A program made the translations under genes and the position numbers. Positions 9,703-21,819 of a DNA stretch of 22,875 bases are shown one piece after another. Position 1 is the first letter of the stretch. Each line of letters begins with the position of its first letter. Source of the stretch: a virus; the IMG/VR virus record IMGVR_UViG_3300042914_001412, positions 1-22,875 of that record; one strand, given 5' to 3'. The notes beneath the pieces are model-generated. The model searched no databases. It was given only the letters and a program-made list of their open reading frames with translations, and was not told the origin of the DNA.

Positions 9703-11232
9703 CTAGTGTCCCATCCATCCTGAAGAGGCTGTTCCACCACCATAACTGACGCGCGGTCTGTTGTCCATTGGTCTGGCCTCCCTGTGCGCCACAGGATACG
9801 CGAACGTCACGGCGATAGCGTCGGCGGCGTCGGGGCTGGCTAGACCACGCGCCTTCATGTCTTTCTTGCTTTCTAGGAATATAGTCCCTTTACTGTCGGG
9901 CTTCATCATGGGGCCGGTCAGGTCGCTCTTTAGGAAGCGGTCGTTTGGGATGCTGGCTGTCTTCAGCCACTCCCGCATGGCGTGCCACATTTCAGCGCGC
10001 TTGTTTCCGAACATGATCGGACGGGAAGACTTGCTGCCGAAGTTGACGCCCCTGATCTTGTATCGCTGCTCCTTGAGCCGGTCGACGACGCCCGCCCCTA
10101 GGCCGCCTTCGTCCACGACGACGAGCGCTGGGCGGAACTCTTCGATGATGTCAATGACTCTGCCGACCACCTCCATCGTGTCGTCGCCGCGGTAGCGACG
10201 GATGCCGATGATGTCACGGCCCTGCCGGATAGCGATGACCGTCGCGTCAGCCCCGAACCGCGCCGGGTCGACGCCCACGATTATCGGCGCTGTCTGATCT
10301 TTCTGCGGCGATCTTTGCTGCGCCTCCATGACCAGTGATGACGGTATGAACTGGTCATCGCTCGCGTTCGGGAAGGCTCCGTAGACCTCGACGTGAGCCT
10401 GAGCGCTGTCGGGGCCGTATTCGTCGATAATCTGCTGATAGACTGCCTTATCAGTTCCCTCCACGCTTCTGGCGTCAACAACCTTGTTTCGCCAGAAGTC
10501 GCGCTTGTTGTGGAAGCACTCGTAGAAGTATCCGCTGTTACGGCGGGGGTTGCTAAAGCTAAGCCAAAAACGATTAGGAGTGTTCTCTGTAAAGAAGCCA
10601 CTGGCCACCGCCCAGATAGAGTCATCAATACCGCTGGCCTCGTCGAACACGAGCATGACGCCCGCGAAGTTGTGCACGCCCGCGTAGCTGTCAGGGTTCT
10701 CGGCCGACCACAGCCGCCCCTCCACGCCCCAGTAACGCGTGCCCAGCTTTAGATCGCGCTCGACCAGTTCCGCAATCCACTTGGCCGGCAGCACGCGGGT
10801 GGCGCTTACCTCGAACCAATGGCTGTTGAGGCACATTGATAGCCATTTGGTGATCTCGGCCCAAGTGACGCTGCGTAGCTGCGCTTCTGAGTTGGCCGAC
10901 ACGATAGTCGTCGAGCCTATGCGCGTGGTCAGCATCCAGATCACGAGCCAACTCACGAGGGCTGACTTGCCGATACCGCGGCCGGAGGACGTGGCCATGC
11001 GAAAGGTTTCAAAGTCAACCTTGCCGTTATTCTCTTTGATGTGGTCGCGCAGGTCTTGGAGGACTTCTAGCTGCCACTTGCGCGGGCCTGTGAAGTGTTC
11101 CAGTGGCGTGCCGGCCTTACCCCACGGGAACGCCATCCTCACGAACGCGACCGGATCGTTCTTCACCTGCGCCGACCATAAGGTCGCCATCAGCTTCTGT
11201 TCTTCGTCCGCTGAGTAGATCGGCACTTGCAT
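9703..11232 (-). CDS. terL: Terminase large subunit
   Basis: The 509-residue packaging motor ATPase and nuclease. ATPase: Walker A GRGIGKS (residues 84-90), Walker B VMLVFDEA with Asp197 and Glu198, and coupling motif SNP near 227-229. Nuclease: first acidic residue Asp322 in IIVGVDPARFGADATVIAI, second Asp374 in VVVDEGGLGAGV, and third in SPDAADAIAVTF (Asp468/Asp471). Both halves are intact and the length is normal. The start ATG 11232 has GGGAGAG upstream. The first 116 bases overlap the 3' end of the small-subunit gene in another frame. It cuts concatemeric DNA and pumps it through the portal. The frame downstream is immediately followed by the three small basic genes. Confidence 0.95.
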   Translation of the reverse strand: MQVPIYSADEEQKLMATLWSAQVKNDPVAFVRMAFPWGKAGTPLEHFTGPRKWQLEVLQDLRDHIKENNGKVDFETFRMATSSGRGIGKSALVSWLVIWMLTTRIGSTTIVSANSEAQLRSVTWAEITKWLSMCLNSHWFEVSATRVLPAKWIAELVERDLKLGTRYWGVEGRLWSAENPDSYAGVHNFAGVMLVFDEASGIDDSIWAVASGFFTENTPNRFWLSFSNPRRNSGYFYECFHNKRDFWRNKVVDARSVEGTDKAVYQQIIDEYGPDSAQAHVEVYGAFPNASDDQFIPSSLVMEAQQRSPQKDQTAPIIVGVDPARFGADATVIAIRQGRDIIGIRRYRGDDTMEVVGRVIDIIEEFRPALVVVDEGGLGAGVVDRLKEQRYKIRGVNFGSKSSRPIMFGNKRAEMWHAMREWLKTASIPNDRFLKSDLTGPMMKPDSKGTIFLESKKDMKARGLASPDAADAIAVTFAYPVAHREARPMDNRPRVSYGGGTASSGWMGH

Positions 11233-11638
11233 CTAATATCTCTCCCTGGATCACGCGCTGCTGCGCCTCTTCTAGCGCCGCGATGATGGATATGCGCTGC
11301 TCGACCTGCACCTGCACCGACTGCGGGGCCGTCCACTTGTGGACGTGTTTTAGAATGTCCAGCGCCGCCTTCGTGTCGCCAGCGCGGGCGGCGTTGTGCA
11401 GCACCTCGGACATTTCCGCTTCGCCCTCAGCGCGCCCCTTCTGTTCGGCATACTCCGCGATGGGGTCGAACTGCACCAGCCGCCGATACTCGGTCGGGGT
11501 CATGCCCGCGGCGTAGGCGAGCGTGTCGCCTTTCAGCCCTTTGCGGGCGGCGAGATAGATGCGCTCTAGGACGGCTTCCGTCGCCTCTATTTTGCGCGGT
11601 TCATAAGGTAGGGACTCAAACATAAAGTCTTTTACCAT
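11117..11638 (-). CDS. terS: Probable terminase small subunit
   Basis: About 173 residues, directly upstream of the large subunit, the usual place for the DNA-recognition subunit. After a short N-terminus comes a helical HTH-like region, AVLERIYLAARKGLKGDTLA then YAAGMTPTEYRRLVQFDPIA, of the kind found in small terminases. It is followed by an oligomerisation-like helix (AEMSEVLHNAARAGDTKAAL) and DILKHVHKWTAPQSVQVQVE, a common terS ending motif. The last 38 residues are read in the region shared with the large subunit and look less constrained. Start choice is uncertain: ATG 11638 (MVKDFMFES) and ATG 11623 (MFESLPYEP) are both possible and neither has a good ribosome binding site. The open frame to 11728 has no good start. 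Confidence 0.8.
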   Translation of the reverse strand: MVKDFMFESLPYEPRKIEATEAVLERIYLAARKGLKGDTLAYAAGMTPTEYRRLVQFDPIAEYAEQKGRAEGEAEMSEVLHNAARAGDTKAALDILKHVHKWTAPQSVQVQVEQRISIIAALEEAQQRVIQGEILDASADLLSGRRTEADGDLMVGAGEERSGRVREDGVPVG

Positions 11639-11732
11639 TAAAATAAAAAATAAAAAAGTTCGCGTGATGGCTACGTATTTCTTAAAGGAGATCCCCAGGC
11701 CCAGCCCCCCCCTATTTGTCAACGCCACCTGC

Positions 11733-11756
11733 GTTAAGGTTAAATGTTAAGGTTAA
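11733..11756 (+). repeat. Tandem 11-bp repeat GTTAAGGTTAA
   Basis: Two identical copies of GTTAAGGTTAA at 11733-11743 and 11746-11756, 13 bases apart. The second runs into the perfect palindrome GGTTAACC (11751-11758). The site lies about 95 bases upstream of the small terminase start, where an operator for the leftward operon could sit. The binding protein is unknown. Confidence 0.8.
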
Positions 11757-11759
11757 CCA

Positions 11760-11928
11760 ATAGTCAAATAGTCATGCAGATCGGGGATCGGTGCTGGCAT
11801 GAGTTATGTTGTCAATCATAGTCAAATAGTCATGGAGATGCAGGGTTGGTGCTAGGTCGCACTGTGATGACTGCGCGGGCCTGGTCGACGAGGGCCAGGA
11901 GGCATAGTCAATAGTCATGATAGTCATG
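11760..11928 (+). repeat. Left arm: seven ATAGTCA direct repeats
   Basis: ATAGTCA occurs at 11760-11766, 11768-11774, 11818-11824, 11826-11832, 11904-11910, 11911-11917 and 11920-11926, all in the plus orientation, and four copies extend to ATAGTCATG. The first two pairs form an 18-bp unit (ATAGTCAAATAGTCATG core) repeated at a 58-bp interval. The third cluster is three near-tandem copies. Such short direct repeats resemble iterons or a repressor-binding array. Confidence 0.82.
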
Positions 11929-12012
11929 GATTTTAGATGCAAGGTTGCGCCCGTGTTCTATATATCATTCTGTATACATTCATACAATTGGTATGAGTAT
12001 TACACACCCATA

Positions 12013-12094
12013 ACTATATGACTATTCCTAAGCCGCGCCTCGCCTCGCGCCCGCGTTGTTGACGACTATTCCATAACTATTTCGTAACCATTCC
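12013..12094 (+). repeat. Right arm: ACTAT motifs with an 11-bp phased run
   Basis: The inverse core ACTAT occurs at 12013 (ACTATATG), 12021 (ACTATTCC), 12065 (ACTATTCC) and 12076 (ACTATTTC), with a variant ACCATTCC at 12087. The last three are spaced exactly 11 bases apart, close to one helical turn. They are in the opposite orientation to the left-arm ATAGTCA motifs, with an AT-rich core between the two arms. Confidence 0.72.
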
Positions 12095-12121
12095 GACATT
12101 TCACCAAAAGATTTGTTGCAA

Positions 12122-12130
12122 TTATCCACA
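12122..12130 (+). promoter_or_regulatory. Perfect DnaA box TTATCCACA
   Basis: TTATCCACA is an exact match to the bacterial DnaA box consensus TTATNCACA. It lies between the ACTAT array and the first rightward gene. The same operon encodes a stand-alone DnaA domain IV protein (15301-15534), which makes a chance match less likely. It could bind host DnaA, the phage protein, or both. Confidence 0.6.
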
Positions 12131-12143
12131 GTCCGTGGTCAGA

Positions 12144-12165
12144 TAACATATCCACAGAGAGGAGG
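12144..12165 (+). promoter_or_regulatory. AACATATCCACA leader motif 1 with strong ribosome binding site
   Basis: TAACATATCCACA (12144-12156) is followed by AGGAGG (12160-12165), 7 bases before the ATG at 12173. The ATATCCACA part differs from the DnaA box by one base. The same motif recurs at 12526 and 12986, each time just ahead of a ribosome binding site. The block GGAGG-N-ATAGTCA at 12161-12173 also occurs at 11898-11910. Confidence 0.65.
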
Positions 12166-12172
12166 AATAGTC

Positions 12173-12283
12173 ATGTATCAAGTCTACGTCTATCGCCATG
12201 ACTATTGGTTATTTGTCGACTCAACCGTTGACTTAGCCGCAGCGCAAGCGCTGGCGGCGCGCATTGGGGGGGTGGTCATATGA
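12173..12283 (+). CDS. Small early protein, 36 aa
   Basis: The first gene of the rightward operon, with AGGAGG seven bases ahead of the ATG. The 36 residues begin MYQVYVYRHDYWLFVDSTVD and end with an Ala-rich helix and GGVVI. There is no membrane segment or signal peptide. The stop overlaps the next start as ATGA (12280-12283). The layout (a beta strand YxVxV, an aromatic strand, a short Ala-rich helix AAAQALAARIGG) parallels the first 45 residues of the next gene, so the two may be paralogues. I do not recognise a family. The very strong ribosome binding site and the tight coupling argue that it is translated. Confidence 0.65.
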   Translation: MYQVYVYRHDYWLFVDSTVDLAAAQALAARIGGVVI

Positions 12284-12489
12284 CTATGACGGCGTATGAA
12301 GTGATGATCGAAACGCGTGACTTTCGTATGTCGCGCATCTTGGCGACGACTACGAAAGCGGAAGCAATCAAAGCGGCGCGGGAACTAGCTAGAACGAGCG
12401 GCGGCAAGGTGGCGTGGGTTCACGTGTTCAACATCCCGACCGCGTTGTCTGTCTTTTCGATGCAGGCGTTAACAAAATCTTTAGCATAA
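12280..12489 (+). CDS. Small alpha/beta protein, 69 aa
   Basis: A 69-residue protein beginning MTMTAYEVMIETRDFRMSRI, followed by TTTKAEAIKAARELARTSGG and KVAWVHVFNIPTAL. This is a beta-beta-alpha-beta pattern of the sort seen in tiny regulatory or host-interaction proteins. Translation is coupled to the preceding gene through ATGA. The second ATG two codons later (MTAYEV) is an alternative start. A strong hairpin terminator begins 5 bases after the stop, so the first two genes form a short transcript of their own when termination works. No family recognised. Confidence 0.7.
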   Translation: MTMTAYEVMIETRDFRMSRILATTTKAEAIKAARELARTSGGKVAWVHVFNIPTALSVFSMQALTKSLA

Positions 12490-12493
12490 TAAG

Positions 12494-12523
12494 AGGCGGC
12501 GCTTGCAAGAGCGCCGCCTTTAT
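12494..12523 (+). terminator. Intrinsic terminator or attenuator after the first two small genes
   Basis: The perfect 9-bp stem AGGCGGCGC / GCGCCGCCT (12494-12502 with 12511-12519) with an 8-base loop is followed by a short weak T tract (TTTAT). Because downstream genes continue on the same strand, it may act as a partial terminator, or as a break before a new promoter near 12526. Confidence 0.75.
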
Positions 12524-12525
12524 CG

Positions 12526-12551
12526 TAACATATCCACACTGTAAAAGAGGA
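12526..12551 (+). promoter_or_regulatory. AACATATCCACA leader motif 2
   Basis: TAACATATCCACA (12526-12538) comes 7 bases after the terminator tract. It is followed by GAGGAG (about 12546-12551), about 10 bases before the ATG at 12561. It is the same motif as at 12144 and 12986. The ATATCCACA part is one mismatch from a DnaA box. Confidence 0.6.
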
Positions 12552-12560
12552 GCCAAGACC

Positions 12561-12947
12561 ATGTGGGACAATTACAAGCCAACCAAAGCCGAGCGCGCCG
12601 CAATCGAGAACGCGTGGCAGGTCGTGTATCGGCTAACCGGCCATGACTGGCGGACAGAGGACATGACAAGGCAGGAGGCCAAAGGTTATGGCAACCGGCA
12701 TGACCGAATCGGGTTGAACGGCGCAAAGGCGCTGGCGGTCAAATGGTTCTATAATGGAACGCAACAGCCCGATCTAAAGCTGGCCGACTATTACTTTTGC
12801 CGGCCAGCGGCCATCTGGTTCACGGGATATGGCGCGTCGAAAGCCTACGCCATATCGGTCGAGGACGAAAACACATTAGTGGCCGGTCTGACCGCGCATG
12901 AAGACGCGTTTAAGCGCATGATCGATGAGAACAGAATAGCAGCATAA
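12561..12947 (+). CDS. Uncharacterised early protein, 128 aa
   Basis: A 128-residue protein beginning MWDNYKPTKAERAAIENAWQ. It contains VVYRLTGHDWRTEDMTRQEA, an aromatic middle block (KWFYNGTQQPDLKLADYYFC) and a helical end KRMIDENRIAA. There is no signal peptide. One cysteine (in YYFCRP) and several Trp/Tyr residues suggest a compact globular fold. I chose ATG 12561 because of the GAGGAG site upstream. The open frame extends to 12414, but that would run back through the terminator and leader. It is followed by a second hairpin and a third copy of the leader motif, so it may be a monocistronic unit. No family recognised. Confidence 0.75.
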   Translation: MWDNYKPTKAERAAIENAWQVVYRLTGHDWRTEDMTRQEAKGYGNRHDRIGLNGAKALAVKWFYNGTQQPDLKLADYYFCRPAAIWFTGYGASKAYAISVEDENTLVAGLTAHEDAFKRMIDENRIAA

Positions 12948-12953
12948 CTTACA

Positions 12954-12984
12954 GGCGGCGCTTCACGGCGTCGCCTTTTCTTTT
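12954..12984 (+). terminator. Second terminator-like hairpin
   Basis: The stem GGCGGCG (12954-12960) pairs with CGTCGCC (12969-12975) through one G-U pair and an 8-base loop, and is followed by TTTTCTTTTG. It starts 7 bases after the stop at 12947. Its 5' arm resembles that of the first hairpin. Confidence 0.78.
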
Positions 12985-12985
12985 G

Positions 12986-13005
12986 CAACATATCCACATA
13001 GGAGC
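12986..13005 (+). promoter_or_regulatory. AACATATCCACA leader motif 3
   Basis: CAACATATCCACA (12986-12998) directly follows the T-rich tract of the second hairpin and precedes AGGAGC, with the ATG at 13014. Three copies in three consecutive leaders imply a shared control signal rather than chance. Confidence 0.6.
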
Positions 13006-13013
13006 AAACGACA

Positions 13014-13499
13014 ATGACCAGCTTAAAAGAATGGATGGATCAACAGTGGCGCAACCCGGGCGTTAGGTTTTCCGGCCATGGCGTCGCGTATATCGGCACC
13101 TGTTTTAAAGATATGCAGGTTCGCGGCGGGTCAAATCGCACCTATAAGTCAAAAGAGCAAAAGGCGTATGAAGCGCGCTTCGGCATTTACAACAAAAAAC
13201 TTGTGCCGATCATCTTGGCCGAAGCAACACGCGACGACCGCTTTAGTCTGCCGCGCTATAGCTGGCCGAAGGAAGCGGAAGCCGCACAAGTAGCCGCGCC
13301 TGCCGTCGCCGTCATACCGCGCAAGCGCGTCTCGCATAAGAAGGTGACGCAAGCCGCCGCCATACTGGCCAAGGTGCCGCAGGACGAATTGACGGCTTTC
13401 CTAGCCAAGTTTGGCCTGTCACTGTCGCTCGCCGCGTCCATTGCGTCATTGGATAACGTCGAGCAGATCGCGCGTCAGTTTTTGAGGGCAACGCTATGA
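13014..13499 (+). CDS. Uncharacterised protein, 161 aa
   Basis: A 161-residue protein beginning MTSLKEWMDQQWRNPGVRFS and continuing FSGHGVAYIGTCFKDMQVRG. After a basic middle (SNRTYKSKEQKAYEARF) comes an Ala/Val/Pro-rich linker (residues 87-103). A helical C-terminal domain follows (KVTQAAAILAKVPQDELTAF, then LAKFGLSLSLAASIASLDNV). Two domains joined by a flexible linker are apparent, but I recognise neither. An AGGAGC site lies 10 bases before the ATG. The stop overlaps the next start as ATGA. It starts the longest unbroken coupled run of small genes (13014 to 15801). Confidence 0.75.
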   Translation: MTSLKEWMDQQWRNPGVRFSGHGVAYIGTCFKDMQVRGGSNRTYKSKEQKAYEARFGIYNKKLVPIILAEATRDDRFSLPRYSWPKEAEAAQVAAPAVAVIPRKRVSHKKVTQAAAILAKVPQDELTAFLAKFGLSLSLAASIASLDNVEQIARQFLRATL

Positions 13500-13660
13500 T
13501 TGAATTAGAGCTGGAAGCCAAAGCGATAGAAGAGTTGATAGAGCTGCTATCCGCCCTACCAACTCGAACAAATCATCTGGACGACGCGCTGCTAACGCTG
13601 CGCGACGTTTACGACAACGCCGCTGAAGAATACTGGACGAACGTTTGGAGCAACCCGTGA
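13496..13660 (+). CDS. Small acidic helical protein, 54 aa
   Basis: A 54-residue protein of mostly Leu/Glu-rich helix, beginning MIELELEAKAIEELIELLSA and ending DNAAEEYWTNVWSNP. It looks like a helical hairpin or dimerising coil. It is coupled at both ends, by ATGA with the previous gene and GTGA with the next. No family recognised. A small inhibitor or adaptor would fit its acidity, but that is a guess. Confidence 0.7.
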   Translation: MIELELEAKAIEELIELLSALPTRTNHLDDALLTLRDVYDNAAEEYWTNVWSNP

Positions 13661-13953
13661 CGTATCTCATTGACTATGAATTAGACGAATTCCAGCCGTG
13701 GCCGGGCATGGCCATCTATGCCTATGGCGTTGCGACCATCACCTATAAATGGGAAGGGCGCGACCGCGACACCGGCGACGACGCCGGCCCATACGACATA
13801 GAGTTGCAACACCTCACAATAAGCGCCGACAAGGCTAAAGAGCCTGACCGCTGCATAGAACAGACTGACCCGCTGTTCGAACGGATTGAAGCCATCCTAT
13901 GCGCCAGCCGCGACGTCGACGCCGCCTGTAGGGCTGACCATGCGGAAGACTGA
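13657..13953 (+). CDS. Uncharacterised acidic protein, 98 aa
   Basis: A 98-residue protein beginning with the GTG-initiated segment TYLIDYELDEFQPWPGMAIY and continuing with a strand-rich core (YGVATITYKWEGRDRDTGDD). It ends in an acidic Cys-containing helix (ILCASRDVDAACRADHAED). GTG 13657 is preferred over TTG 13645 because GGAG sits 6 bases before the GTG and the GTGA overlap with the upstream stop is the pattern used throughout this operon. Three Cys residues near the C-terminus could bind metal. No family recognised. Confidence 0.72.
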   Translation: MTYLIDYELDEFQPWPGMAIYAYGVATITYKWEGRDRDTGDDAGPYDIELQHLTISADKAKEPDRCIEQTDPLFERIEAILCASRDVDAACRADHAED

Positions 13954-14035
13954 TCTGATCGCCTTTGCCGTGGGGGCGGCGCTTGCCGTGCCGCTCCTTT
14001 TTCTCTTCCTGATCCACCTGCTAGGGGGGCTGTAA
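13940..14035 (+). CDS. Tiny single-pass membrane protein, 31 aa
   Basis: A 31-residue peptide MRKTD followed by a strongly hydrophobic stretch LIAFAVGAALAVPLLFLFLI and the end HLLGGL. It has a positively charged N-terminus and one membrane-spanning helix (residues 6-28), so it should insert in the inner membrane. It overlaps the previous gene by 14 bases, and its stop overlaps the next ATG as TAATG. A holin or spanin would usually be longer, so lysis is possible but not supported. It could be a superinfection or host-membrane effector. Confidence 0.6.
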   Translation: MRKTDLIAFAVGAALAVPLLFLFLIHLLGGL

Positions 14036-14217
14036 TGCTTTACGTTGACGACGTTATGCACATTCTGGGCATAGATAACGATTGGGTCGCGCGCTGCATC
14101 CTTGCGCGCATGGACTTAGACTTCTCTGAATGCACGCACGAAGAATTTATAGCCGAATGCAAGCGCGCGGCGGCTGAATTCGTCGAAGAGTGCGCCAACG
14201 CCGAACAAGGAAGCTGA
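14035..14217 (+). CDS. Small acidic protein, 60 aa
   Basis: A 60-residue protein beginning MLYVDDVMHILGIDNDWVAR and ending with EFIAECKRAAAEFVEECANA plus a short tail. Mostly helical, three cysteines, net acidic. Its start is coupled to the membrane peptide by TAATG. It is followed 3 bases later by the next start, with AAGGAAG in its own end as the ribosome binding site for that gene. No family recognised. Confidence 0.7.
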   Translation: MLYVDDVMHILGIDNDWVARCILARMDLDFSECTHEEFIAECKRAAAEFVEECANAEQGS

Positions 14218-14220
14218 CCA

Positions 14221-14460
14221 ATGGATATGGAACTAGAGATGCGCGACATATCGCGCAAATGGGTGGCTATTATCGGCGTGGGGTATAACCCGGACACGGC
14301 GGCGGACGACTACAGCCCGGCGCTGACTAAAGACCAGCAACGCGAATACGCATTCGACATGCGCAAGCTGCGACGCATGGAGCGCGTTTGCGGGATGTGC
14401 GTTTATGAAGCCGGATTGAATGCAATGGCTGACGCGGGGCTGATACCATGCGAGTTCTAG
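14221..14460 (+). CDS. Small protein, 79 aa
   Basis: A 79-residue protein beginning MDMELEMRDISRKWVAIIGV and containing DDYSPALTKDQQREYAFDMR and a Cys-rich end (CGMCVYEAGLNAMADAGLIP). AAGGAAG precedes the ATG. The CxxC at about residues 57-60, with a further Cys at 77, hints at metal binding. Its last 13 bases overlap the methyltransferase-like gene, so the two are probably translated together. No family recognised. Confidence 0.7.
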   Translation: MDMELEMRDISRKWVAIIGVGYNPDTAADDYSPALTKDQQREYAFDMRKLRRMERVCGMCVYEAGLNAMADAGLIPCEF

Positions 14461-14996
14461 TCGCCTGCGAGTTTAGCGGCACCGTCCGTGACGCATTCAC
14501 ACGGCGGGGGCATTACGCAGTTTCATGCGACTTGCTCCCGTCTGAAACGCCCGGCCCGCACCATCAAGGCGACGTGTCGATGATCCTGACCGATGGCTGG
14601 GATCTAATGATCGCGCATCCTCCCTGCACGCACCTTGCCGTGTCCGGCGCGCGCTGGTTCAAGGATAAAAGAGAGGAGCAAGCGGAGGCGCTCGACTTCG
14701 TGCGGCTGTTGCTCGACGCGCCGATTCCGCGCATAGCGCTGGAAAATCCCGTCTCGATCATTAGCAGCAAGATTCGGAAGCCTGACCAGATCATCCAACC
14801 TTGGCAGTTTGGCCACGGCGAGACGAAGGCCACGTGCCTATGGCTGCAAGGGCTACCGCCCCTACAGCCCACGGACATAGTGGAAGGCCGCACGGCGCGC
14901 GTTCATCGTATGCCGCCCGGCCCGGACAGGTGGAAAGAACGGTCACGAACTTATGGAGGCGTCGCGGAAGCGATGGCGGCACAATGGGGCGCATGA
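14448..14996 (+). CDS. Short cytosine-C5 methyltransferase-like protein
   Basis: A 182-residue protein with a Rossmann-like beginning (RVLVACEFSGTVRDAFTRRG, then AVSCDLLPSE). These match the cofactor-binding motif I and the acidic residue after strand 2. It continues with WDLMIAHPPCTHLAVSGARW, carrying Pro-Pro-Cys60 where C5 methyltransferases have the catalytic PC, and RIALENPVS with the ENV-like motif at Glu99-Asn100. The C-terminal part (EGRTARVHRMPPGPDRWKER) replaces the usual target-recognition domain and helix motifs. At 182 residues it is about half the length of a normal m5C enzyme. It may methylate phage DNA for anti-restriction, modify another pyrimidine substrate, or be an unexplored variant. 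It overlaps both neighbours. Confidence 0.72.
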   Translation: MRVLVACEFSGTVRDAFTRRGHYAVSCDLLPSETPGPHHQGDVSMILTDGWDLMIAHPPCTHLAVSGARWFKDKREEQAEALDFVRLLLDAPIPRIALENPVSIISSKIRKPDQIIQPWQFGHGETKATCLWLQGLPPLQPTDIVEGRTARVHRMPPGPDRWKERSRTYGGVAEAMAAQWGA

Positions 14997-15130
14997 AGAA
15001 CTATTACGAATTCTCGCAACTGATCCGTGAACTAGAAACCGAAACGCTGCTGATAATGGCGCAGGCCGAAGATGACGAATACAAGCGCCAACTGATCGAA
15101 TGGGAGATTGAAGAACGTGCTAAGGCTTGA
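14993..15130 (+). CDS. Small acidic helical protein, 45 aa
   Basis: A 45-residue peptide MKNYYEFSQLIRELETETLL, then IMAQAEDDEYKRQLIEWEIE, then ERAKA. It is a single acidic amphipathic helix or helical hairpin. The start overlaps the methyltransferase stop by 4 bases (ATGA). Its end overlaps the next gene by 14 bases. No family recognised. Given the position, a partner of the methyltransferase-like protein is possible but unsupported. Confidence 0.65.
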   Translation: MKNYYEFSQLIRELETETLLIMAQAEDDEYKRQLIEWEIEERAKA

Positions 15131-15353
15131 CCTCACAACCATCCCCGGCGGCGTCCGGGTCAACTGGCGCACCGGTGAGGGGCTAACCTTCCATCGGCGC
15201 GACGGCTCCCTGATAATGAAAATAAACGCCGACTACGCAGACGACCGCGCGCTGATGACCGCAGCGCACGCCCTCAATTTTATGTTTAGGAACATCAAAC
15301 ATGCTGGAACGGCAAATACAGGAACTGATCTGGGAGACGGCGGCCAAGTATAA
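15117..15353 (+). CDS. Small protein, 78 aa, GTG start
   Basis: A 78-residue protein. From GTG 15117 it reads LRLDLTTIPGGVRVNWRTGE and continues with GLTFHRRDGSLIMKINADYA, DDRALMTAAHALNFMFRNIK. A beta-rich N-terminal half is followed by a helix. I prefer GTG 15117 because the alternative TTG 15108 lies immediately on top of the GGGAGA site. The last 53 bases overlap the DnaA domain IV gene in another frame, so the C-terminal tail (HAGTANTGTDLGDGGQV) may be an overlap product. No family recognised. Confidence 0.62.
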   Translation: MLRLDLTTIPGGVRVNWRTGEGLTFHRRDGSLIMKINADYADDRALMTAAHALNFMFRNIKHAGTANTGTDLGDGGQV

Positions 15354-15534
15354 AATCTCCACAGACCTCTTGACCGGCCATAACCGCCGCAAAGAGGTCA
15401 TATGGCCCCGGTTCGAGGTCATGTGGCGCGCACGGCACGAGTTGAACGCACCCTATCAGACCATCGGCCAAGTGCTAGGCGGCCGGGATCATTCCACTAT
15501 CATGCACGGGATCAAACGCTATGAAAACCGCTGA
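15301..15534 (+). CDS. Stand-alone DnaA domain IV (DnaA-box-binding) protein
   Basis: 77 residues. IQELIWETAAKYKISTDLLT is followed by GHNRRKEVIWPRFEVMWRAR and then a helix-turn-helix: APYQTIGQVLGGRDHSTIMH, GIKRYENR. The segment GGRDHST (residues 60-66) is the DnaA signature in domain IV, where Asp, His and Ser/Thr contact the DnaA box. The Arg of the basic loop (R37) is present, but the following Gln is Phe here. No AAA+ domain is present, so this protein can bind DNA but cannot form an initiator filament. AGGA lies upstream of ATG 15301. It likely binds boxes at the phage origin or in leaders, or competes with host DnaA. The domain call is strong; the role is inference. Confidence 0.88.
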   Translation: MLERQIQELIWETAAKYKISTDLLTGHNRRKEVIWPRFEVMWRARHELNAPYQTIGQVLGGRDHSTIMHGIKRYENR

Positions 15535-15589
15535 TGTTGTGTCAGTTTTAATCGCAGTCCTGATCGAACTCATACTTGGGCTAAAATAA
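15521..15589 (+). CDS. Putative 22-aa hydrophobic peptide
   Basis: A 22-residue frame MKTADVVSVLIAVLIELILG-LK, mostly hydrophobic and potentially one short membrane helix. It overlaps the DnaA-domain gene by 14 bases and the next gene by TAATG, the same coupling style as its neighbours. Without that coupling I would not call it. It has no close Shine-Dalgarno of its own. Confidence 0.4.
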   Translation: MKTADVVSVLIAVLIELILGLK

Positions 15590-15801
15590 TGAAACACTGG
15601 GAAACGCAATTCGAGGACTATGGGGCGGTCGTTCCCGACTGGCCGCAGGATAAGCCCTGCTATGAGGTGAACAAGCCCTTATGGGCCTTCTGGCGGCGTC
15701 TGGAGCCTATGTCGCAGGAGCATCCCGTGTTCACCGAACAGGAGATAGTGCGACGACTTGACCTATTTTATTTTGGGGATGGAACGTGCCACACTGGCTA
15801 G
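15589..15801 (+). CDS. Last gene of the plus-strand accessory operon, 70 aa
   Basis: A 70-residue protein beginning MKHWETQFEDYGAVVPDWPQ and continuing DKPCYEVNKPLWAFWRRLEP, MSQEHPVFTEQEIVRRLDLF. It is acidic and aromatic, with no membrane segment. The start is coupled to the preceding stop by TAATG. A strong terminator follows 21 bases after the stop, confirming that this is the operon end. No family recognised. Confidence 0.7.
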   Translation: MKHWETQFEDYGAVVPDWPQDKPCYEVNKPLWAFWRRLEPMSQEHPVFTEQEIVRRLDLFYFGDGTCHTG

Positions 15802-15822
15802 TTTCCTCCCTACGGTGAACTA

Positions 15823-15850
15823 AGCCCCGCTTTGGCGGGGTTTTCTTTGT
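15823..15850 (+). terminator. Strong intrinsic terminator of the accessory operon
   Basis: The stem CCCCGC (15825-15830) pairs with GCGGGG (15835-15840), with a 4-base loop, A/G-T/T outer pairs and TTTTCTTTGTTTTG following. It lies between the plus-strand operon end and the convergent minus-strand gene ending at 15856. On the opposite strand the tract after the stem is not T-rich, so it appears to work mainly rightward. Confidence 0.88.
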
Positions 15851-15855
15851 TTTGC

Positions 15856-16434
15856 TTAGCGGGCAAGCCCGAGCATTTGCAGATACGGGTAGAGCGAGTC
15901 GCGCATAGCGTTGCGGTTAACGCCAGCGCTAATAGCCATGCCGAGCGGCATAGGCGGCCCTTGCGGGTTGCTATAATCACGGCCGCCCGCATAGGTTGAA
16001 TCTTCTGGCATACCTTGCTGCCCTAGTACGGGCGCGGGACCGGGTATCTGCTCCCGCATACGCCCCGCCATACGCATGGCTTCGGCCTGCCGCATACGGG
16101 CGTCAAGCTCAAGCTGATGCTGGATCGGATCGTAGGGGTAGGCCTGCTGCACGGCCTGCTCATACTGCGGCTGCGTGTAATAGTAATTGGAACCGGCAGG
16201 GGCGGGCATGGGTTGATTCAGCCGCGCCATAATCCCAGCGATTTCCTTCCTGTAGTCCATGTCCTCGTCGACCGGCCCAGGGGCGTTCGGGTAGGCCATC
16301 CGGTTCTGCTCATACCGCAGACGCTGCATCTCCGGCTCATATTCGACGCCGCCTTCCACACCCGCCGCCAAACGTGCTATGACGTTGCTTTCCAGTTCCT
16401 TGGCCGTCAGTTTGCCTCTGAGTTTTTTAGCCAT
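15856..16434 (-). CDS. Uncharacterised Met/Gln/Pro-rich protein, 192 aa
   Basis: A 192-residue protein beginning MAKKLRGKLTAKELESNVIA. A helical segment (residues 8-75) leads to a low-complexity middle (NQPMPAPAGSNYYYTQPQYE) and a Met/Arg/Gln helix (ARMRQAEAMRMAGRMREQIP). The C-terminus is Gly/Pro-rich and ends YLQMLGLAR. The repeated Pro/Gln/Tyr composition is typical of flexible virion or ejection proteins, but no family is recognised. ATG 16434 is chosen over an in-frame TTG at 16464, which has no ribosome binding site. The gene is alone on this strand between two plus-strand units. Its start shares a CATG with a divergent gene. Confidence 0.68.
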   Translation of the reverse strand: MAKKLRGKLTAKELESNVIARLAAGVEGGVEYEPEMQRLRYEQNRMAYPNAPGPVDEDMDYRKEIAGIMARLNQPMPAPAGSNYYYTQPQYEQAVQQAYPYDPIQHQLELDARMRQAEAMRMAGRMREQIPGPAPVLGQQGMPEDSTYAGGRDYSNPQGPPMPLGMAISAGVNRNAMRDSLYPYLQMLGLAR

Positions 16435-21236: not shown

Positions 21237-21436
21237 TCGTCGCCGCTTTCGAGACGGTAGCCAAGATACTCACCGTTCGGGCCGTTGTAGATCGTCATGT
21301 CGCCCACCTTTGGCGCGCTGATCTGACCGTAGGGCGTGTAGTAAAAGTTCTCTTCGGGGTATTGCAGTTCGGTGGCGACTGGCCCGTTAGGGCCGCCCCA
21401 CACGGCTATGCCGGCGGCTAGGATAATGTGTTTCAT
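21233..21436 (-). CDS. Small exported protein, 67 aa
   Basis: A 67-residue protein with a signal-peptide-like start, MKHIILAAGIAVWGGPNGPV-A, then a short beta-rich body (TELQYPEENFYYTPYGQISA, then TIYNGPNGEYLGYRLESGDE). The likely mature part is about 46 residues and would be periplasmic, with cleavage after GPVA uncertain. It is coupled to its neighbours by ATGA on both sides (21233-21236 and 21433-21436). An exported protein inside the replication operon is unusual. Superinfection exclusion or envelope modification is possible, but nothing in the sequence proves it. Confidence 0.72.
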   Translation of the reverse strand: MKHIILAAGIAVWGGPNGPVATELQYPEENFYYTPYGQISAPKVGDMTIYNGPNGEYLGYRLESGDE

Positions 21437-21819
21437 TTTTTCAGGCTCTGGTAGGCGCGCTTGACGCGGACGCGAGTGATGATGTTGGCGATTGTGTTCT
21501 TGGCGATGTGCAGCTTGATCGCTACGACGTTGTGCGAGTTACCGTCGTTTATCAGTTTTTCGACTTCTAACTCGCGTTCCGTCAGCGGATCGGCTTTGAT
21601 AAGTTCGCACCACTTGTCGCTGTAGCTGGGGTTGATGATGACAGGCTCATGCTTCAGCACGCTATACTTGTGATAGTATTCTGTCGTGCCGCCCTCTAAG
21701 AACTTGATGCGGGGGATAGACAGGAGCATGTGACGCGCGCTGCTGCCGTTATCTTCGGCGCTACCATTACGCGGCATGTTGACCGGAATATACCGGCTTA
21801 CCTTCTCGATTCGATCCAT
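21433..21819 (-). CDS. LuxR/GerE-type helix-turn-helix protein
   Basis: A 128-residue protein. Residues 79-125 (LTERELEVEKLINDGNSHNV, VAIKLHIAKNTIANIITRVR) match the LuxR C-terminal HTH consensus, LTxREREVLxLxAxGxSxKEIA...L..S.xTVxxHxxxI. The N-terminal 75 residues (starting MDRIEKVSRYIPVNMPRNGS) are not a recognised sensor domain and contain one Cys (71). It is a likely DNA-binding transcription regulator, perhaps of its own operon or of the divergent region. The ATG at 21819 is overlapped by the preceding small membrane gene and its stop is coupled to the next gene. The call is firm for the HTH and open for target and signal. Confidence 0.82.
   Translation of the reverse strand: MDRIEKVSRYIPVNMPRNGSAEDNGSSARHMLLSIPRIKFLEGGTTEYYHKYSVLKHEPVIINPSYSDKWCELIKADPLTERELEVEKLINDGNSHNVVAIKLHIAKNTIANIITRVRVKRAYQSLKK

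Follow-up and report, generated by a model that had tools for sequence, protein, structure and literature searches.

The viral contig IMGVR_UViG_3300042914_001412, whose full length of 22,875 bases is referred to here as the window, carries a structural operon that reads leftward, an early operon that reads rightward (about 12173-15801) and a second leftward operon that encodes a primase-like protein and a family A polymerase. Our subject is the last-but-one open reading frame (ORF) of the early operon, which encodes a protein of 77 amino acids (aa), together with a set of DnaA-box-like sequences that lie at the head of the same operon and in the leaders of its first genes (Table 1).

An earlier, sequence-only reading of this DNA had described the 77-aa protein as carrying the DnaA signature GGRDHST without an AAA+ domain, and this description is correct. 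Pfam assigns the protein to Bac_DnaA_C (PF08299; E 5.6e-17, 62 bits against a cut-off of 31.5), and the same search returns no AAA+ family; only the C-terminal domain is present, so the protein does not qualify as a full initiator DnaA. By sequence it matches PDB entry 1j1v, the DnaA-box-bound domain IV of Escherichia coli DnaA (E 1.3e-6), and the same entry is the best Foldseek match of its predicted model (mean predicted local distance difference test score, pLDDT, 96.4; root mean square deviation 0.7 Å, TMq 0.89, E 1.3e-3), the model and the match both pointing to the helix-turn-helix (HTH) fold of domain IV. When the base-contact positions of the E. coli protein (399, 423, 432-435, 438 and 439) are mapped by alignment to 1j1v, five of the eight are identical (399, 432, 433, 434 and 439), two are conservatively replaced (T435S and L438M) and one is different (P423Q). 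The 77-aa protein is a DnaA domain IV standing alone.

The octamer TATCCACA occurs at 12123, 12149, 12531 and 12991, always on the + strand, and nowhere else in the window; with both strands counted, shuffled windows contain it 0.36 times on average and none of 200 shuffles reaches four copies. Three copies of AACATATCCACA compare with a shuffle mean of 0.01, and again none of 200 shuffles reaches that number. These are the three leader copies of the sequence-only reading, which had placed each of them one base too far to the left: they start at 12145, 12527 and 12987. Its perfect box, TTATCCACA at 12122-12130, is where it was said to be and matches the DnaA-box consensus TTWTNCACA in full, and each of the three leader boxes is off by one base. 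One perfect TTATCCACA is unremarkable by itself, with at least one in 15 of the 200 shuffles; it is its place that surprises. The two internal leader boxes follow terminator-like hairpins. That at 12494 has a T-poor tail on the + strand and is reported by the pattern scan on the - strand only, and the terminator-like sites of the region (7, against a shuffle mean of 5.0) are by count alone not above chance. A search of Rfam gave no match at the gathering threshold, and a Pfam search of the four ORFs that adjoin the boxes gave no family over its cut-off.

Table 1. Boxes, hairpins and associated genes of the early operon (positions in the window)
Feature	Position	Strand	Basis or remark
Candidate -35 of the early promoter, TTGCAA	12116-12121	+	Position taken from relatives such as L008
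Box 1, TTATCCACA, at the promoter-spacer place	12122-12130	+	Relatives have a box there in 14 of 26 hairpin-free contexts
Head leader box, TAACATATCCACA	12144-12156	+	Box 1 lies 26 bp upstream; the ribosome site of the 12173 gene follows
Early genes adjoining the boxes (ORFs from 12173, 12280, 12561 and 13014)	12173-13499	+	
Terminator-like hairpin ahead of the second leader box	12494-12519	+	The same context in L002 has a folding energy of -24.8 kcal/mol (z -5.9)
Leader box inside the operon, TAACATATCCACA, ahead of the 12561 gene	12526-12538	+	
Terminator-like hairpin ahead of the third leader box, with T tail	12953-12976	+	Pattern scan
Leader box inside the operon, CAACATATCCACA, ahead of the 13014 gene	12986-12998	+	
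Stand-alone DnaA domain IV, 77 aa, GGRDHST	15301-15534	+	Pfam, model, Foldseek

A protein scan of viral contigs returned 31 loci (L numbers are our handles for loci and genomes), 19 of them close (63-100% identity, not dereplicated). The sequence-only reading expected relatives with the gene to keep at least one of the two box types. Close relatives do: TATCCACA stands at the operon head in all 17 that reach the region, contigs L004 and L015 ending too soon. For distant phages with such a domain the expectation largely fails, the leader element being present in none of L021-L032 and a single TATCCACA in a few. From a polymerase scan we took the best 80 of 258 relatives and, omitting loci with less than 6.5 kb after the polymerase and six near-duplicates, arrived at a dereplicated set of 28 genomes with the gene and 15 without. 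The comparison of these two groups, which the sequence-only reading had proposed, comes out in its favour: TAACNNANNNACA followed by a ribosome site and a start codon is found in 23 of the 28 gene-bearing genomes (38 sites; one match on the opposite strand) and in none of the 15 gene-less ones, by a partly post hoc pattern that is biased toward gene-bearing genomes because it was composed after these had been viewed.

A motif scan of viral contigs gave at least 120 matches, and among the matches listed 14 contigs have a pair of boxes 26-27 bp apart. The gene lies downstream in seven of them (three of which overlap the protein scan), including all four that extend for at least 3.3 kb; the seven without it end within 2.9 kb, L119 and L141 (2.8 kb downstream) being the near-informative ones, and the gene sits 1.7-3.2 kb from the head. 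Per-genome word counts and a loose promoter-box regular expression were too noisy by themselves. A general link of phage DnaA domains with boxes was considered and rejected: TTWTNCACA is absent in L236, L237 and L238, L235 has three against 0.84 expected, and L021-L028 have 0 to 2 per locus. As a separate observation, L028 has a single TTATCCACA at 10495 (- strand) directly before a ribosome site and start, as do L029-L032 at the same place; L028-L032 are other phages, whose DnaA-domain protein is distant.

Sorting 50 distinct 53-base TAACNTATCMACA contexts, counted as contexts and not as independent lineages, separates two kinds of site: 24 come after a hairpin predicted to be stable, and the other 26 lack a hairpin, 22 of them with a -35-like hexamer (operon heads) and four without. 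An upstream second box is present in 14 of the 26 hairpin-free contexts (at 26 bp in seven, at 27 bp in seven) and in none of the 24 hairpin contexts. L017 is one of the good examples: its head reads TTGACA-ctatccacaatcggcc-TATAAA-TAACATATCCACA, so that one box separates -35 from -10 and the other covers the point where the transcript is expected to start. In relatives the place of box 1 is the spacer of a sigma-70-like promoter. A box in such a spacer probably escapes transcription, which argues for action on DNA. In the 22 contexts that fold below -12 kcal/mol the hairpin pairing survives double changes, one pair being G-C in 14, C-G in six and unpaired in two. We also tried the internal TAACAT as a -10 element with a -35 in the hairpin loop. 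Some cases fit (TTGCAA-17-TAACAT), but L170, L019 and the AAACNCACA clade do not, and we judge the fit to be a side effect of loop and stem length; the TAAC pattern itself overlooks CAAC copies, such as the third leader of the window.

Predicted promoters, which 20 of the 30 gene-bearing genomes and nine of the 15 gene-less ones yielded, were searched for the fixed, published TTWTNCACA with at most one mismatch. In gene-bearing genomes 13 of 30 predicted promoters hold a box (four strictly), against a shuffle mean of 2.9 and a largest value of 8 in 200 shuffles; in gene-less genomes 3 of 17 do (none strictly), against a mean of 2.3 and a largest value of 7, the shuffles keeping base content only and some of the predicted promoters being false. 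The claim that the phage combines a box reader and boxes in one control system stands insofar as gene and leader boxes co-occur and relatives have boxes on the early promoter. The further suggestion of the sequence-only reading that 12122 marks an origin gains no support, that place being the promoter spacer in relatives, and none of our observations points to diversion or blocking of host DnaA or to control of replication. A different arrangement was seen at the C-strand heads of L186 near 2779 and 3029 (operon orientation), where DnaA boxes face each other in the promoter spacers: right after TTATCAACA or TTATGCACA comes TGTGTATAA, which is TTATACACA reversed and lies over the -10.

The gene-less sister clade offers a view of what appears to be the same promoter with what may be another operator. 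The 16-nt run AAAATAATGTTTGACA is common to gene-bearing L017 and gene-less L222 and L231 (the latter two close to each other), and because of this run and its position we infer that the promoters share descent. The spacers differ, TTGTAAAAGAATCTTG in L222/L231 and CTATCCACAATCGGCC in L017, and the gene-less ones hold no box. At the corresponding promoter spacer the heads of L199, L200 and L205, and with one mismatch that of L201, show by eye a TGTAA...TTACA palindrome, which might suit another, dimeric regulator. In gene-less L227 and L231 the operon includes a gene for a very small HTH-like protein (43-51 aa) with weak matches in Pfam.

Within the gene-bearing genomes the leader box differs by clade, being TATCCACA, TATCAACA, AAATCMACA or AAACNCACA (also AAAGTCACA). 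In the clade formed by L171, L175, L178, L181, L197, L198 and L229, D433 and T435 have been lost (RTHAAV or RTHPAV); in the protein of this AAACNCACA clade D433 is replaced by T, T435 by A or P, and H439 by R, and positions 433, 435 and 439 contact bases in DnaA. Leaders with AAACNCACA occur in five of its seven genomes, L171 and L175 being without the pattern; the box of this other clade reads TAACAAACTCACA and the L197-type protein RTHAAV. These changes fit co-evolution of box and protein, in one clade. Other changes are not tracked: the D433N proteins of L161 and L170 go with retained TATCCACA. The idea that box position 6 (C or A) follows residue 439 was dropped, as L163 and L173 keep the histidine yet have TATCAACA. 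Nine genomes (L155, L157, L159, L160, L162-L164, L173 and L192) encode a second DnaA domain IV protein of 195-230 aa upstream of the DNA polymerase, in which the domain is followed by a second helical region that in L162 weakly matches Pfam GerE (LuxR-type HTH; E 0.0014, under the cut-off). By eye, the 220 bp upstream of this second gene hold no boxes in 11 relatives, and the counterpart by position in the window (21433-21819) matches GerE (25.1 bits, cut-off 23.5) and has no DnaA domain.

Two further features of the region are recorded here. The early operon includes a DNA methyltransferase gene (14448-14996; phrog_757, E 2e-70), the sole part of 11600-16000 with nucleotide similarity to named phages (E 1e-5). 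The divergent intergenic region at 11733-12082 has many direct and inverted repeats (AATAGTCATG and its complement), and its counterpart in relatives has repeats of other sequence. A scan of genome contigs for a host gave a 6.3-kb Betaproteobacteria contig from a metagenome-assembled genome (69%, partial) and a Clostridium locus (31%), from which we make no host call.

What can be read directly from the sequences, namely the domain, the boxes (where they lie, on which strand and how conserved they are), the hairpins, and the fact that boxes and gene occur together, suggests that a DnaA DNA-reading domain has been reused as a gene switch. On balance, the case is evenly poised for the 77-aa protein being a transcription regulator of the early operon that reuses the DnaA domain and represses its own synthesis via the operator and leader boxes. 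Such a protein would probably be a delayed self-repressor that acts through the operator box and the leader boxes: with its gene close to the operon's far end, it would accumulate late; as a monomer it would bind the box between -35 and -10 plus the box over the transcript start; and, once enough of it had been made, it would shut off its own promoter. In the internal leaders, protein bound right after a terminator-like hairpin would be a roadblock that lowers the expression of each box-led gene. We infer that it is the 77-aa protein rather than another that binds the boxes; that binding would be repressive is suggested because the box lies on the core promoter, and the internal boxes would likewise act on DNA.

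Several observations weigh against this proposal. The -10 of the window itself is poor, and no promoter is predicted there in the window; box 1 is missing from 12 of the 26 hairpin-free contexts. The one-base departure of the leader boxes from TTWTNCACA counts here, as does the conserved TAAC of the leader, which a 9-bp DnaA box does not explain, and the place of the leader boxes before ribosome sites is not explained either. Five of the 28 gene-bearing genomes (L171, L175, L186, L190 and L194) are without the leader pattern, and unrelated phages with the DnaA domain show no leader boxes. The gene-less clade has leaders of its own before start codons, and a leader motif therefore need not imply a DnaA reader. 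Finally, the polymerase tree parts the gene-bearing from the gene-less set by one change; gene and boxes split on a single branch, and their association therefore counts as one event.

Host DnaA might instead read the boxes, the early promoter sensing DnaA while the phage domain IV without AAA+ competes and so relieves or tunes the control. The boxes are near or equal to the E. coli consensus, strict TTWTNCACA lies on predicted promoters of relatives such as L186 and L232, and a domain IV whose contact residues are the same would be a competitor at these sites. On the other side, no such boxes were found in the sister clade that lacks the gene, whose members presumably meet host DnaA too, and in one clade box and contact residues have both drifted from the DnaA type. 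We regard this explanation as unlikely. It is similarly improbable that the leader element acts in RNA, as a start-associated sequence (SAS) in translation or mRNA processing whose likeness to a DnaA box is partly fortuitous. The same octamer is found in promoter spacers, with other box forms there in other lineages, where it is probably untranscribed, and no Rfam family matches; these points count against an action in RNA. In its favour are the position of the element just before the ribosome site and, at heads, over the expected transcript start, its place inside the operon after hairpins whose stems pair through double changes, the TAAC part that falls outside the DnaA box, the other leaders of gene-less relatives, and the role in translation initiation suggested for elements of cluster K mycobacteriophages in PMC3203893. 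A replication origin, with the protein aiding initiator assembly in the divergent intergenic region near the AATAGTCATG repeats, is very improbable: the head adjoins repeat-rich 11733-12082, the phage encodes a primase-helicase and a DNA polymerase of its own, and two boxes 26 bp apart lie near a local minimum of cumulative GC skew (about 11-11.5 kb), but that minimum sits at the turn of gene orientation, which it also fits, and the skew falls lower elsewhere in the window, the boxes precede start codons one after another through the first genes and are not clustered, the protein lacks an ATPase, box 1 matches promoter geometry in relatives, and the repeat sequences vary between relatives.

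Taking the self-repressor proposal further, we tentatively suggest, at somewhat less than an even chance, that a podophage clade combines a DnaA-box operator at its early promoter with a bare domain IV that would repress, as a monomer, at the promoter, at the start of the transcript and at hairpin-box-ribosome-site leaders, so that it would represent a start-associated-sequence system with a nameable reader and a different operator at the gene-less sister promoter. If true, the box-reading head of DnaA became a phage gene switch; operator and regulator differ together at seemingly one promoter, traceable across dozens of genomes; and a start-associated leader element has a candidate reader, in a simple system for distinguishing action on DNA from action on RNA.

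In titles and starts of abstracts of the open-access literature we found no description of a DnaA domain that stands alone in a phage and acts on boxes; PMC4776307, to judge from the same parts, deals with a DnaA-binding prophage protein. The phage protein resembles DnaA domain IV on its box (1j1v) in fold, in most base-contact residues and in the box core, and differs in being the domain alone without AAA+, in being phage-encoded and in having Q in place of P423. Unlike those of bacterial DnaA, the phage boxes occupy an early promoter and leaders instead of an oriC cluster. Among named phages, Podoviridae sp. ctNMl277 (MW202483.1) has a gene annotated 'dnaa protein helix-turn-helix', and its genes for the methyltransferase, the DnaA domain, the primase-like protein and the polymerase (the last 62.5% identical) are arranged as in the window; its DnaA domain is, however, just 31.9% identical, and the promoters at its heads contain TTATGCACA and TTTTACACA.

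The stoperators of cluster A mycobacteriophages, as outlined in PMC9283540, are asymmetric repeats through which a monomeric repressor acts on early promoters and on elongation. Asymmetric repeated sites and a monomeric reader on early promoters and elongation would be common to both systems, repression in the phage being putative. Stoperators are, however, spread over the genome, whereas TATCCACA is confined to 12123-12991 within a 22.9-kb fragment, and their repressor has two DNA-binding domains where the phage protein has one. The leaders most closely resemble, by analogy, the SAS and extended SAS (ESAS) of cluster K mycobacteriophages, which PMC3203893 describes as 13-bp asymmetric elements in one orientation just before non-structural start codons, about half of them with an inverted repeat just upstream, and for which its authors leave open a protein or an RNA as binder. 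The phage leaders are likewise 13-bp, asymmetric, in one orientation and before starts, many after a hairpin. The SAS/ESAS consensus GGGATAGGAGCCC is unrelated to TAACATATCCACA and contains the ribosome site, whereas the phage element lies upstream of it; and, unlike SAS/ESAS as described there, the phage system has a second copy of its element in the promoter and encodes a candidate reader.

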